A stretch of 64,000 bases of DNA. Origin: Pseudomonadota bacterium. Lineage in GTDB: Bacteria > Pseudomonadota > Gammaproteobacteria > Steroidobacterales > Steroidobacteraceae. Shown here piece by piece: positions 7,998 through 14,187 of the stretch. The notes beneath the pieces were generated by a model. That model was given only the letters and a program-made list of their open reading frames with translations. It had not been told where the DNA came from and searched no databases. Position 1 is the first letter of the stretch. The number at the start of each line of letters is the position of its first letter. The stretch spans positions 496,001 through 560,000 of the forward strand of contig JAFEDS010000005.1 in assembly GCA_018241505.1 (NCBI GenBank). The letters run 5' to 3'. Position numbers and translations under genes: made by a program.

Positions 7998-8025
7998 ATT
8001 GCGCATAATGTATATTATGTCAAAT
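7998..8025 (+). other. dif: dif site (XerC/XerD recombination site)
   Basis: The 28 bases consist of a XerC arm ATTGCGCATAA, a central TGTATA and a XerD arm TTATGTCAAAT. Compared with the Escherichia coli dif site as I remember it (arms GGTGCGCATAA and TTATGTTAAAT, same centre) only three positions differ. Both arms keep the core inverted CATAAT/ATTATG pairing. In gammaproteobacteria this site lies in the replication terminus and resolves chromosome dimers under FtsK control. It is also the target of Xer-using mobile elements. No second copy was found in the window, so it is more likely the chromosomal site than one end of an integrated element. Confidence 0.9.
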
Positions 8026-8788: not shown

Positions 8789-9277
8789 TTAGGCTGGCCG
8801 GCCTTTTTCGCCCGCGCGCTGTTCATCCTTCTGCCGCCGCTCATCAGAGTGTGTCAGTTTGTCCCGAACGGCGCGGAGGACCGTCTCGTAATCATCTCGA
8901 CCAACGATGGTATTTGCGTATAGCTGAGCATCGAACAGGGCGCTATAACGGTTCAAGATCTCGAGGCCGCCTGTGAGCAATTTCTGCACATCCTCTTTGG
9001 TGAGCGGATATCTCAGGTTCAAATCCTGAGGTTCAATCGCATCGCGCGCGCTTCGGTGGGCAAAATAGTTGTTACGTAATACGATGAGACTCTTGACGGA
9101 CGGATTGCCCTCCCCCGCAAACTCGATATCATCAGCGAGTTGCTTTGGATCCGGGCCTTTCGCCGCGGCGGCAAGGGAGTCGACAAACGAATTGCCTTTC
9201 AACCTTTCTCGAAAATTCTCCTCTGTGAAAATGCCGAGGTTGTCCTGGATGGTTTTCAGGAAGTTTCGAAGATTCAA
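8789..9277 (-). CDS. HEPN-domain-like protein, possible RNase
   Basis: The protein is 162 aa and mostly helical. A central LRNNYFAHRSARDA gives the R-N-x4-H motif that forms the ribonuclease site in HEPN domains such as AbiU2-like proteins and toxins. A charged tail (DERRQKDEQRAGEKGRPA) ends it. It appears to start at TTG (9277), overlapping the stop of the upstream gene as TTGA, so the two are translationally coupled. HEPN proteins often act as RNA-cleaving toxins in toxin-antitoxin or abortive-infection modules; activity here is inferred only from the motif. The upstream 111-aa protein would be the natural partner or antitoxin. Confidence 0.6.
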   Translation of the reverse strand: MNLRNFLKTIQDNLGIFTEENFRERLKGNSFVDSLAAAAKGPDPKQLADDIEFAGEGNPSVKSLIVLRNNYFAHRSARDAIEPQDLNLRYPLTKEDVQKLLTGGLEILNRYSALFDAQLYANTIVGRDDYETVLRAVRDKLTHSDERRQKDEQRAGEKGRPA

Positions 9278-9609
9278 CCCATCTCGGTCACACGCTCCGG
9301 TTTTATCGCGCGCTGCAGCGAAGTATCAGTTGACGTGTCCATCAGACGTAACTCAGCGCGTACCACCACGCGTGTTTCGCCCGTTTGCCGCTCACGGACC
9401 ACCATTCGATCCAGCGAGAGACAATGGGCGAGTTCAACCTCGATCTCGCCGAGTCTGAATCGCGTGCCAGGGGAGAACTGAACATCCGTTGGATGCTTTA
9501 TGTAGAGCATGGCATTCGACGATGCGCCCTCGCCATGCTCGGCAACGTTCTCGCTTCCTGTCACAGTTGTCCCGTCAATGTCCGGCATCGACGTAATTTT
9601 AGAGTTCAT
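9274..9609 (-). CDS. Unrecognised 111-aa protein, partner of the HEPN protein
   Basis: I do not recognise this protein. From ATG 9609 it starts MNSKITSMPDIDG. An acidic N-terminal third is followed by a probable beta-rich domain (MLYIKHPTDVQFSPGTRFRLGEIEVELAHCLSLDRMVVRERQTGETRVVV, read as short strands). AAAGAGAG just upstream serves as ribosome-binding site, and a TTG eight codons upstream is a weaker alternative start. It ends in a 4-nt overlap with the HEPN gene, which argues for a two-component module in which this is the first-translated, possibly neutralising, partner. That role is inference. Confidence 0.5.
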   Translation of the reverse strand: MNSKITSMPDIDGTTVTGSENVAEHGEGASSNAMLYIKHPTDVQFSPGTRFRLGEIEVELAHCLSLDRMVVRERQTGETRVVVRAELRLMDTSTDTSLQRAIKPERVTEMG

Positions 9610-9809
9610 GACGCTCTCTTTTTTGCCCCGCAAAAGAACACGGGATTCGCACCCGCTTCAGCACGCTTCGCACGCACGGTGTCGGTGCCAGTACTGCTTA
9701 CTGCGATCGGATTGTTACGCTGACTTTCGATTCGACGTATAACAGACTCAAGGTATGTCTGATCTGGTGAATAGAGTGGAAGAGTGCCTGTTGGCGGCTG
9801 GACGCGCAA
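9606..9809 (-). CDS. Possible small protein (67 aa) upstream of the HEPN operon
   Basis: An open frame from TTG at 9809 ends in a TGA that overlaps the ATG of the next gene (ATGA at 9609-9606), the spacing of coupled genes. The product has a helical charged middle (YLESVIRRIESQRNN) and a basic end. There is no ATG and no recognisable domain, so it may be chance. Confidence 0.25.
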   Translation of the reverse strand: MRVQPPTGTLPLYSPDQTYLESVIRRIESQRNNPIAVSSTGTDTVRAKRAEAGANPVFFCGAKKRAS

Positions 9810-10208: not shown

Positions 10209-11147
10209 ATGCAACGGATGCCATTGACGGATAGCCCTCAATGCCGGGACCTGTTGAGCCACCTCTTTCCGGCACTCGACATTGAATCAAACCTGCGGCC
10301 TTCAGGGCAGCGGTTGGTTTACTTTTGCCGATTCAGGAATGGTGGCCAGGACACGATGCAAGCTCATTGGGCTCAATGGGGACCTGTTGTCTTGAAAATA
10401 TCGGAGGACGTGCACCCGACTGTCATTGCACGACTGGAAAAGGAGCGTGAGATTCTGAACGGGCTGTGTTCACCGTTCTTCCCGCGGTTGCTCTATTGCG
10501 ATGTTTTCAGCAACGATCCCATCACGGACACCCGCTTTCCCTATCGACTGTTTGTCACCATTGAGGAGCGGATAGATGGTGCCCCACTAACGGATTGCCG
10601 CGGGTCCTTTTCAACGGAAGCCGCAGTCGCGCGTCTCATGTCTGAACTTATCGAAGGGCTCACCTTGCTGTGGGAGCATCCCCAAAAGATCATCCATCGC
10701 GATCTCAAGCCCGATAACATTCTCATCCGGCCGAACGGGCGCCCCGTTATCATCGACCTGGGTATTGTCAGGGAACAAGGTGCGGCGGGCCTGACCGGCA
10801 CAAACTGGCAGATTGGCCCTTGTACGCCAGCGTATGCGAGCCCGGAGCAGCTCAAGAACGAAAAACGCTTCATTACCTACAAGTCGGACTTCTTCTCACT
10901 CGGCGTACTCACCTACGAGCTTCTTACCGGCGGCAATCCCTTCGCTCTATCACCCGTTGACCCCATCGAAGTAGTCGTTCACCGGGCTTTGACGCTACGG
11001 CCGCCAGCGTTGGCGGGACTAGGACTGGCGAGCCCAGAACTGTCCGCACTTGTAGAACGACTCATGGCGAAGGAGCCATACATGCGACCCAGGACCGTCC
11101 GTGAATTCAAAGACACACTTCGGGAAATTGTGGGGTCAGGCTCATGA
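10209..11147 (+). CDS. Hanks-type Ser/Thr protein kinase (soluble)
   Basis: The 312-aa protein is essentially a bare kinase domain with no membrane segment or sensor domain. ATP-binding Lys63 lies in GPVVLKIS and a helix-C Glu in LEKEREIL. The catalytic loop is H163-R-D165-L-K-P-D-N170. The metal site reads D183-L-G rather than DFG, and S211-P-E replaces APE. All catalytic residues are therefore present. The N-terminus lacks a clear glycine-rich loop. ATG at 10218 (fourth residue) has AGAGG about 10 bp upstream and may be the real start. The stop overlaps the next gene as ATGA, so the kinase and the 398-aa protein are made together. Phosphorylation of the partner or of host factors is inference. 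Confidence 0.85.
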   Translation: MQRMPLTDSPQCRDLLSHLFPALDIESNLRPSGQRLVYFCRFRNGGQDTMQAHWAQWGPVVLKISEDVHPTVIARLEKEREILNGLCSPFFPRLLYCDVFSNDPITDTRFPYRLFVTIEERIDGAPLTDCRGSFSTEAAVARLMSELIEGLTLLWEHPQKIIHRDLKPDNILIRPNGRPVIIDLGIVREQGAAGLTGTNWQIGPCTPAYASPEQLKNEKRFITYKSDFFSLGVLTYELLTGGNPFALSPVDPIEVVVHRALTLRPPALAGLGLASPELSALVERLMAKEPYMRPRTVREFKDTLREIVGSGS

Positions 11148-12340
11148 CGATCAAACTCTATCACCAGGTCGGTCACTTCGGAAACTGGAACGTCGCCTCT
11201 TTTGAAACAGAGGGTTGCGGGGACGGGCTCATCTTGAGCCCGGTTCATCAGAACCGAGACCAAGTCGAAACGCTTAGTGAGAACATCCGGACTCACTCCC
11301 TATTTGACCCGCAGTACTATCTTCCGAACTCGCCCAAGGCAAAGTTGGCTACCTATGAGTTTTTTCCGGAGCAGATCGCGAACGGATTCTCGACCAAGGA
11401 CTTTCCCCTCGTGGCCCTCCAGTCCGCTGAGCTGTGCGTCAACTTTCAGGTCGCCTGTGAGTTCGAGGGAATAGTCATTCCCGCCCGATTTCTTGATCAG
11501 ATGAGTTCAAAATACTTCGAACGGCAGGAGGAGTACACGGTTCTGCCGTTCCTCAAGGCGTTGTCTAAGGCCGGTATCTCCGCGAAACCGATCTACTTGA
11601 CGGTGCCCTTGACCGCCGCGATGTTGCGAGATGAGGATTTCCACGTCCAAATTCTGAATTGGGTCACCGGGTTCCCAGATATCTCGGGCGTCTACGTTCT
11701 CGTGAACGACGACCGAACCACCAAGCAGATCCGCTCGCGCGAATTCCTCTCTGCGTACCTGGAGTTCGTGCACGCGCTGTCAAATGCTCGACTGAGCGTG
11801 GTTGCAGGTCACTTGAACAGCGAGAGTGTTCTCTTTACGCTGGTCGACGAAATTGCCGTGACGTTCGGGTCGTTCGAAAATACACGCATTTTCTCACTCG
11901 ACAAGTTCATCGAATCAGAGGAAGAGCGGCGCGCTCCGAAGTCACGGATCTATCTGCCTGCACTACTCAATTGGATTCAGTATGACCAGGCGATCCAGAT
12001 CCGAGATGACGATCCTGCCCTATGGACTCAACTCTACAGACCAACGCAACACGGTGACGCCGTGCTCACTGCGCCCGTCGAGCCATACTTCAACCAGCCC
12101 CTGCTATACAAGCATCATTTTGTCTGCATGCACGAGCAGATTAAGGCGCTGGCCAAGGAATCCCTCCTGCAGCGCTACCAGCGCCTTCGAGACCATATCA
12201 GGGAGGGGATGGCGCTCTATCAGAGGATTGAGGACATGCCCCTTGATCTGGATCCGCACGGACGCGGGGAGCACCTTCCAGTGTGGTTGGATAGCCTAAA
12301 CGCTTTCTACCGGCGCCATCTGAAGCCGCGACGTGGCTAA
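11144..12340 (+). CDS. Unrecognised 398-aa protein coupled to the kinase
   Basis: I do not recognise this family with certainty. There is no signal peptide or membrane segment. The N-terminal part (LYHQVGHFGNWNVASFE, GDGLILSPVHQNRDQVE) and the alternating strand/helix pattern through residues 60-260 (KPIYLTVPLTAAML, ISGVYVLVND, LSVVAGHLNSESVL, DEIAVTFGSFENTRIF) suggest an alpha/beta barrel, possibly distantly like the tRNA-guanine transglycosylase barrel; this is a hunch. The C-terminal 100 residues are helical and charged. It starts inside the kinase stop codon (ATGA), and its last 45 bp overlap the 3' end of a convergent gene. The tight coupling makes it the likely effector or substrate of the kinase. 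Confidence 0.6.
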   Translation: MTIKLYHQVGHFGNWNVASFETEGCGDGLILSPVHQNRDQVETLSENIRTHSLFDPQYYLPNSPKAKLATYEFFPEQIANGFSTKDFPLVALQSAELCVNFQVACEFEGIVIPARFLDQMSSKYFERQEEYTVLPFLKALSKAGISAKPIYLTVPLTAAMLRDEDFHVQILNWVTGFPDISGVYVLVNDDRTTKQIRSREFLSAYLEFVHALSNARLSVVAGHLNSESVLFTLVDEIAVTFGSFENTRIFSLDKFIESEEERRAPKSRIYLPALLNWIQYDQAIQIRDDDPALWTQLYRPTQHGDAVLTAPVEPYFNQPLLYKHHFVCMHEQIKALAKESLLQRYQRLRDHIREGMALYQRIEDMPLDLDPHGRGEHLPVWLDSLNAFYRRHLKPRRG

Positions 12341-13108
12341 GTGCCTCGAAATCTCTGCATTCACTTGCCAAAAGCGCTGGGGAAGTCGTGGTGTGCGGAA
12401 CGCCGCCGTACACGCTACTTCGAACTCGCCCTTTGGGCTGACACCCGCCAGTCCGATGCCACGATGTTGGAATTCGTCTACATGAAGACGAGCGTTGGCG
12501 AACGCCTTCGAGTCCAACACAACCCACGACTGGTTTGCGTAGTCCAGATACCGCGAAGCTTGGTAGATCGCTCTGCGCCAGTCTGATAGCTTGGCCTCGA
12601 TGGCAATGATTCTTTCGGTCACGGGGCTCGGGTCGCGCAGTTTGATCCAAGTCCCCTGATCCGCCCGATATACGCAAAAGCCGCAATCCGCATAACTCTT
12701 GAGCACACCGCGCGCAGCGGACGGAGTTACATTCGCGAGATTCGCGAAATCTTCGACCCGGAAGGGTTCCAACGGGAGTGACTTCAGCGCATAGAGCCAT
12801 CGCGGCGGCAATCGATGGAGTTCGTCCTTATTGCGCCACCCTGGAACCAATCGCGCGGCAGCTAGATCGGCAATTCCACTGGGAGACACCAGCTCGGAGA
12901 TCCACGTCCATCGCTCAGACGCACTTTGGGCAAACAATCCGCGGATCACCCTGACCAATGCGGCTTCGGTCTCGAACGGCAACAGGAGCGAGTGTGCGGA
13001 TGCCGTAGGCTTGTTCCGCAAGCAAGGGAGTTCCGCCTGTTGCACCGCGAGCTCGCGAGAGAAAGATGGGCCTATGGTCGGCTTATGTGGCCGGAACGTC
13101 AACAGCAT
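12296..13108 (-). CDS. Putative winged-helix plus PD-(D/E)XK nuclease-like protein
   Basis: The 270-aa product has a probable winged-helix region at about residues 115-160 (FRVEDFANLANVTPSAARGVLKSY). The segment ERIIAIEAKLSDWRRAIYQASRY then matches the E-x-K strand and following helix of PD-(D/E)XK nucleases, with WVVLDS as the next strand. It may therefore be a DNA-binding nuclease or a regulator using a nuclease-like fold; the first catalytic acid cannot be assigned by eye. The frame stays open upstream to 13178 without a usual start codon, so ATG at 13108 is used. It lies downstream of the DUF3800 gene on the same strand, after a 131-bp gap. Confidence 0.5.
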   Translation of the reverse strand: MLLTFRPHKPTIGPSFSRELAVQQAELPCLRNKPTASAHSLLLPFETEAALVRVIRGLFAQSASERWTWISELVSPSGIADLAAARLVPGWRNKDELHRLPPRWLYALKSLPLEPFRVEDFANLANVTPSAARGVLKSYADCGFCVYRADQGTWIKLRDPSPVTERIIAIEAKLSDWRRAIYQASRYLDYANQSWVVLDSKAFANARLHVDEFQHRGIGLAGVSPKGEFEVACTAAFRTPRLPQRFWQVNAEISRHLATSRLQMAPVESV

Positions 13109-13239: not shown

Positions 13240-14187
13240 TCACCATGGTGGATCTGCCGGAAGGCGCTTCAACATCCGATCCGCCTGAATCACCCTCCCG
13301 TATTGCTTTGCCGAGTCCTCATTCGGACTTACCTTCGCCATCGGTAGATTCACATACCAGAGGCGTTCGGGAGAAACGATTCTCAGAAACTGGACGTCAC
13401 GCTCCTTACTGATACCCGCGGAGACTATCCACTGTGCTCGCGCCACCACAAACGCAGCAAAATCCGCCAGTTGGAGAAATGGAAATTGATGGGAGCTCTG
13501 AAATGACGCGCATCCACCCAGGAAGAGATCTGCCCAGCCGGGCACCGACACCGCACTGCCGGCCTTCAGCAAGCCCTCGTCAATAACCAGTGACAACGGC
13601 TTCGCCAGCACTTGCTGCTGCTCGCGCATGAACATTCGAACCCGGCAGAGTAAGAACAGCAGTCCCACATGCTCGTGGTTGTGGGACTTGAACCAAGGCA
13701 AGCGTTTCGGCCATTCCCTCATGTATTGACGCGTTTCCGCCAGATACTGCGGGGAAAGAGTCTGAACGACAATCGGGAGCTTAAAGCTCGCAAAAAGCGT
13801 TGCCATTAGATCGAACAGTTCGTAGCGCTTCTCGATCGGAACAGGTTTGAAAGCTCCTCGCCCGTTATAGATATCGGTGAAGTGCAACTCGTCAACCCCG
13901 AATTCGCCGCGCACTCCATCAATAAACAACTGCAATCCAGTGCGAAGGCTAGCTACTGCAGCGGCTGGAACAATGACGGCCGCCCAGGTCTTTCGATTCA
14001 CATGCAGGAAAGCGGACTTTGGGGCAACTCCCGGAGTGCCGCTGTCGTCGACAGCGATAACACCGGCGAGTTCGAGCTCACTGACTGGCATGCAGGATTT
14101 CCCGGTGGTCACAAGACCCGCCATCGACGGCCCGAAGTAGGCACGCGAGTTCAATGACTCCCTCAACTGCCGACACGCATCCACCAT
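13240..14187 (-). CDS. DUF3800 domain protein (RNase H-like fold)
   Basis: The 315-aa product shows the DUF3800 marks: an N-terminal acidic motif V-D-D-S-G (residues 46-50), ELHFTDIYNG, a middle LSLVIDEG and a C-terminal FLQLADFAAF. These acids would form a metal-binding RNase H-like site. The family occurs next to restriction, abortive-infection and mobile-element genes, but its biochemical role is not established to my knowledge. ATG at 14187 overlaps the previous gene by 25 bp. Starts at 14124 or 14091 would place the DDSG motif nearer the N-terminus, as is usual for the family, and remove the overlap. It belongs to the leftward PadR operon. Confidence 0.75.
   Translation of the reverse strand: MVDACRQLRESLNSRAYFGPSMAGLVTTGKSCMPVSELELAGVIAVDDSGTPGVAPKSAFLHVNRKTWAAVIVPAAAVASLRTGLQLFIDGVRGEFGVDELHFTDIYNGRGAFKPVPIEKRYELFDLMATLFASFKLPIVVQTLSPQYLAETRQYMREWPKRLPWFKSHNHEHVGLLFLLCRVRMFMREQQQVLAKPLSLVIDEGLLKAGSAVSVPGWADLFLGGCASFQSSHQFPFLQLADFAAFVVARAQWIVSAGISKERDVQFLRIVSPERLWYVNLPMAKVSPNEDSAKQYGRVIQADRMLKRLPADPPW

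Follow-up and report, generated by a model that had tools for sequence, protein, structure and literature searches.

Several described defence systems resemble parts of the locus analysed here. The kinase-kinase-phosphatase (KKP) system of Pf-type prophages defends by phosphorylation: its phosphatase holds toxic kinases in check until it is itself inhibited by a phage protein, and the accessible part of the source describes two kinases and a PP2C phosphatase, with no mention, as far as that part goes, of a nuclease or barrel partner (PMC11341870). PglW of type 2 BREX and extended DndF variants combine a Ser/Thr kinase, a restriction-endonuclease fold and winged helices; in the available sections of PMC12839542 and PMC10853773 these are fused parts of large proteins (1400-1600 aa in PglW) that belong to multi-gene systems and carry a NERD nuclease. 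Furthermore, tRNA-guanine transglycosylases (TGTs) occur, together with nucleases, in the Dpd system (as DpdA) and in BREX-related capture (BRC) systems, whose gene sets are given in the part of PMC12839542 that covers them (section 36) as DpdB/DpdC and as PglZ, HerA and others, respectively.

The window, by which we mean the whole stretch of 64,000 nt that was analysed, contains a small Ser/Thr kinase gene, B, together with two partner genes, C and A:

10209 to 11147, plus strand: gene B, Ser/Thr protein kinase, 312 aa, one catalytic domain (PF00069, E 3.1e-24)
11144 to 12340, plus strand: gene C, unclassified (beta/alpha)8-barrel protein, 398 aa, predicted tRNA-guanine-transglycosylase-like fold
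12296 to 13108, minus strand: gene A, PD-(D/E)XK nuclease-like protein, 270 aa
12296 to 12340: overlap of the 3′ ends of C (plus strand) and A (minus strand), 45 nt

The first-pass annotation had described a kinase and a 398-aa protein coupled by ATGA, and both the coordinates and the shared ATGA (11144-11147) proved correct; since relatives point to it, ATG 10218 may be the start of B instead of 10209. Gene A was overlooked at that stage, and the proposed two-gene kinase module has to be enlarged accordingly: no fewer than three genes are conserved together, the nuclease-type A being the third, and a phosphatase follows in 13 of 47 loci.

Like KKP, the module joins a Ser/Thr kinase and a linked phosphatase on mobile elements, but it has one kinase instead of two, and its phosphatase is optional and of varied fold. 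The KKP arrangement (PP2C followed by two kinase genes) is absent from the 47 loci, which by profile search have one B-type kinase each and PP2C in 4 cases. Unlike PglW and DndF, the module consists of separate small genes, with a kinase far shorter than PglW, and includes a TGT-like protein. With Dpd and BRC it would share a TGT-fold protein, predicted in the case of C, but the TGT motifs are missing in C. The window kinase matches the PADLOC models mad6 (E 3.7e-33) and PD-T4-6 (E 5e-32), which to judge from the sequence is generic similarity of the kinase domain only. Neither A nor C of the window matches a PADLOC model up to E 1, and among seven other window proteins scanned there was no PADLOC match, either to the BREX partners (PglZ, BrxC, large PglW) or to the other mad genes of what we take to be the MADS gene set. 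By these comparisons the module does not belong to KKP, BREX or MADS, and it departs from TGTs in part of the features compared.

We favour, with modest confidence, the reading that A-B-C is a mobile conflict module, likely an anti-invader defence, in which Ser/Thr phosphorylation gates a DNA nuclease. As regards signalling direction, substrates, ligand and defence role, we infer that C, a predicted TGT-like barrel without the TGT signature motifs, would bind nucleic acid and probably inspect a base in a conserved base-sized pocket. Made together with B, C would signal to this kinase, which would phosphorylate A and perhaps C. Phosphorylation would then switch the winged-helix PD-(D/E)XK nuclease A between silent and active, A would act on invader or host DNA, and the linked phosphatase, where present, would oppose B and reset the system. 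If the module is a defence, it would represent a small immune system that pairs a kinase with a nuclease and recognises nucleic acid through a new kind of subunit. The trio is apparently undescribed: no description of it turned up in the open-licence literature searched. Both its gene set and the C family seem to be new; the principle of a conflict system controlled by phosphorylation has precedents.

Conservation and distribution of the three genes

Among 47 loci with C recovered by profile searches with A, B and C (a set that leaves out L001 and also L002, which is the same record as L010), B is adjacent in all 47 and A in 46. The exception, L014, lies on a contig that ends 154 bases past C, where no recognisable A end was seen by eye. 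L097 and the divergent L112 also hold all three genes, which brings the counts to 49 of 49 distinct contigs for B and 48 of 49 for A. The pairing of kinase and C proposed from the window is thus conserved in distant genomes, far beyond chance. The genes form a tandem A-B-C in 25 of the 47 loci and the window type, B-C facing A, in 21. In 19 of the 21 convergent loci, C and A share 9-45 nt at their 3′ ends, and by the distances between their C proteins all convergent loci fall into a single close cluster (at most 0.60 inside it, at least 0.75 to others).

Alignments cover 41 C, 40 B and 42 A proteins of the 49 loci. When near-duplicates (L008, L020, L024, L027) and loci missing from one alignment are set aside, the distance matrices of the remaining 37 loci are strongly correlated (Mantel correlation 0.88 for A-B, 0.87 for A-C and 0.93 for B-C), with none of 2000 permutations reaching values as high. 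In addition, six close pairs of loci, compared for each of the three genes, give 18 dN/dS values, all of which lie at 0.04-0.18. At the level of sequence, these comparisons establish that A, B and C are co-inherited and under purifying selection, with the kinase and nuclease motifs intact. Single copies are damaged: C is broken into two ORFs in L039, and the N-lobe of the kinase is not in frame in L009.

The reverse search gave 15 loci with A in two scans: A, B and C together in 8, A with a kinase-like ORF and no C in 4 (L105-L108, of which L105-L107 look like one sequence), and A alone in 3 (L100, L111 and L101, the last of which ends inside A). In the viral contigs L105-L108, the kinase-like ORF after A encodes 142 aa (L105-L107) or 254 aa (L108); these loci may represent either remnants or a variant that dispenses with C.

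C is very rare among the related genomes searched: when the order (296 genomes), the phylum (398) and the class (369) were searched by tblastn or with profiles, the one hit each time was its own genome. No C turned up when viral and genome contigs were scanned with single sequences, four queries against 50,697 phage records found none either, and a DNA search of E. coli genomes with the L032 module gave no match. The first distant C (25% identity, 90% coverage) is encoded on a plasmid of the haloarchaeon Natribaculum breve, where a kinase lies upstream of C and is itself preceded by a 230-aa protein resembling window A (32% over 82 residues, E 9e-13); a Polaromonas plasmid carries the same trio. 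Alignment-based scans gave 6 viral contigs and 39 genome contigs, with the Natribaculum plasmid again among the 39, while L093-L096, L098-L099, L102-L104, L109-L110 and L114 are contigs already counted. As alignment scans need a conserved peptide, relatives are undercounted. The divergent C of L112 (6126-7322), in which MIDQQYHIP replaces the DPQxYxP motif of the family, is preceded by A and B, and since it still accompanies them, the C family appears to be larger than pattern scans show.

According to record titles, the hosts include haloarchaea, Proteobacteria, Campylobacterales, Bacillota, Elusimicrobia, Nannocystis, Desulfosarcina, Planctomycetota, Actinobacteria and Armatimonadetes, by our own count about nine bacterial phyla, although these labels are tentative because many of the records are metagenome bins. 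The trio, whose core protein C is in no family library searched, occurs in both archaea and bacteria and in part on mobile elements. Silvania and haloarchaea are among the cultured hosts that have four-gene copies with open frames, and the module is a concrete, cloneable target.

The kinase and its linked phosphatases

The claim that B is a bare kinase domain with all catalytic residues and no sensor was borne out: the protein has a single PF00069 domain (86.2 bits, cut-off 31.7) and no sensor domain, and K63, E79, H163-R-D165, K167, N170 and D183 are invariant in 40 of 40 aligned module kinases. Equally invariant (40 of 40) is T196, which comes after the DxG motif and before the APE-type glutamate, a position that we assign to the activation segment. 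The solved structures related to B in sequence are kinases of the PknB, PknA and StkP types.

A phosphatase directly adjoins the module in 13 of the 47 loci, which are not phylogenetically independent. From their motifs, we take four of these to be PP2C (L005, L018, L021, L031; after C, in three Campylobacterota and one viral contig), six to be PPP-like metallophosphatases (L007, L026, L027, L032, L034, L043; beside A, in Silvania, two Aeromonas, Vibrio metschnikovii, an Oceanobacter bin and the viral contig L007) and three to be YfcE-like phosphoesterases (L010-L012; after C, in three haloarchaea). When 139 neighbour ORFs from 42 loci (139 of 207 listed) were clustered by blastp, metallophosphoesterases recurred in 8 loci and PP2C in 4; no other group was shared by more than 2 loci. 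PF00149 or PF13672 matches 12 of the 139 neighbours, as against 12 places in all 7.9 Mb of the host genome, an enrichment of about 50-fold (Fisher p 6e-15, a value that assumes 6800 genes and is inflated by clade relatedness). Profiles of the PF00149/PF13672 type had no match in the fetched stretch of the other 34 of 47 loci, the window included. As far as gene neighbourhoods go, phosphatases have been recruited to one kinase module, and more than once. Since two unrelated phosphatase folds are involved, we argue that removing phosphate matters to the module. Outside the 13, a calcineurin-like phosphoesterase ORF was seen by eye just past C in L097 (6189-7115), and is perhaps a further case.

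The linked phosphatases, and the compactness of operons that in part lie on plasmids and viral contigs, could also be expected of a toxin-antitoxin-like module. Here A or C would be toxic to the host and B would keep it phosphorylated and silent; in a version styled after KKP, which the accessible part of PMC11341870 describes as a kinase-phosphatase tripartite toxin-antitoxin system, the kinase would be the toxin and the phosphatase the antidote. In either version, defence would be secondary or absent and the module would mainly stabilise mobile elements. However, three to four genes, with an intact nuclease motif and a separate barrel protein, are more elaborate than the usual pairs, and the phosphatase profiles had no match in the 34 loci just mentioned. 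We consider this explanation rather unlikely, though it deserves attention, and retain the preferred reading of a nuclease gated by phosphorylation.

The barrel protein

The partner that the first-pass annotation could not name is still without a name in sequence libraries: window C has no Pfam match up to E 1, and nothing better than E 0.99 was found among PDB sequences. The 41 aligned C proteins gave isolated weak matches, one member each, in Pfam, PHROGs, PADLOC and NCBIfam; PIN_12, rSAM_PTO1314, Specificity_I and the other weak matches of single members were rejected as isolated. None of the 41 has a match to PF01702. Thus C was found in no housekeeping sequence family, and the structure prediction and fold search proposed earlier as a check indicate a TGT-type barrel in the model.

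The conserved positions of the predicted barrel cluster on its catalytic face, to a degree that none of 250 circular shifts reached. The identity to tRNA-guanine transglycosylase (1iq8 and others) is 11%, and Foldseek by itself places other barrels ahead of TGT. In a viral fold library there was no match at E ≤ 0.001, and a putative queuine tRNA-ribosyltransferase ranked fifth (E 0.027). Sequence homology to TGT was rejected, the HHalign probability being 0.4% against 29 TGTs (of 30 fetched). The C profile had no match to four phage DpdA-type proteins, a comparison in which TGT against DpdA likewise reached only 5.5%. The relation of the modelled C to TGT is structural only.

DSGG[FY]Q is present in 29 of 29 TGTs and the zinc motif CxCxxC in 25 of 29. 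In the 41 aligned C proteins, the position of the former is occupied by DPQxYxP without exception (41 of 41) and the latter is absent (0 of 41). The residues D55 and Y59 of C face the pocket in the model, with a D-x-x-x-aromatic spacing equal to that of the TGT motif DSGG[FY]. Judging by strand order, the position of the nucleophile Asp presumably corresponds to the invariant G242 of C.

A more specific form of the preferred reading, which we regard as improbable, is a phosphorylation-gated restriction that senses modification: C would be a base reader that flips bases out for inspection but does not exchange them, its targets perhaps being the 7-deazaguanines that protect the DNA of some phages, B would relay the signal, A would cut, and the phosphatases would be the off-switch. 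If true, an immune sensor would have been built from a retired tRNA/DNA base-exchange enzyme and combined with independently recruited phosphatases. The predicted fold and the TGT-like spacing of the pocket-facing D55 and Y59 could, alternatively, indicate Dpd-type modification-restriction, in which C swaps a DNA or tRNA base for 7-deazaguanine, A cuts unmodified DNA and the kinase regulates. We think this very improbable, given the replaced TGT motif, the missing zinc motif and the glycine that presumably takes the place of the nucleophile; moreover, there is no preQ0-pathway family among the 25 of 103 neighbour Pfam families listed.

In the tandem clade (L004, L006, L036, L046, L047), C frequently has an extra N-terminal leader, alike across phyla, that seems to be a duplicate of the first strand (MELYLHxGMF..RRR.. 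ahead of MELYLQFGYG).

The nuclease-like protein and the genomic surroundings

Motif and modelled fold place A in the PD-(D/E)XK nuclease superfamily. E48, E72 and D81 are conserved in 41 of 42 aligned A proteins, and E171, K173 and Q183 in all 42; a winged-helix domain is inserted between motif D and E-x-K, and the model has a predicted nuclease fold. Window A matches no nuclease family in Pfam, and PDDEXK_9 matches 1 of the 42 members. The winged helix would also suit a regulatory module of a mobile element, with A acting mainly as a regulator and B controlling element or host gene expression, as KKP regulates lysogeny too (accessible part of PMC11341870), but this is very unlikely, as a single regulon would hardly suit such diverse hosts and elements and the retained catalytic residues argue for cleavage.

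Several neighbourhoods are defence-like, in keeping with the phage-defence setting that the first-pass annotation had envisaged. In the viral contig L007 a primase-helicase, presumably of the P4-alpha type, lies about 1 kb from the kinase. In L032, the copy of Silvania confinis, psu adjoins the module upstream of the kinase, with no integrase identified by eye beside it; the psu-int stretch of P4-type satellites is a known reservoir of anti-phage systems (accessible part of PMC9122126). Tail-like genes surround the module in L006 and L008 (by eye), and L002 and L003 are plasmids. On plasmid p1 of Bradyrhizobium sp. 62B (L113), the pieces of a broken module lie next to a SAVED-domain protein and two Fic proteins. 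The neighbours of the module also include restriction-modification, AbiEi/AbiEii and integrase families, and the PADLOC DpdH profile matches 2 of the 139 pooled neighbour proteins (best E 3.8e-63), so that some copies may be connected with Dpd systems. However, because phage integrase recurs too (5 of 139 neighbours, in a Pfam tally with 25 of 103 families listed), part of this context is only mobile.

Within the window, the module lies between two genes that had been named as part of an island. The HEPN gene is real (HEPN_AbiU2, 8789-9277, PF18734, E 2.1e-12); the DUF3800 gene at 13240-14187 scores below the cut-off (19.7 of 21 bits). A dif-like site, with one mismatch to the dif consensus, lies at 8000-8025, and the variable region near it may be an integration hotspot that exploits dif. 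The G+C content around the module is slightly lowered, at 0.53-0.58 for 9-14 kb, compared with 0.56-0.63 in most of the remaining first 30 kb. The flanking aminotransferase was uninformative as an island anchor, paralogues being present. At 8789-9633 the HEPN_AbiU2-type gene overlaps by 4 bases a 119-aa ORF on the same strand that has no Pfam match, and the two are a possible toxin-antitoxin-like pair.
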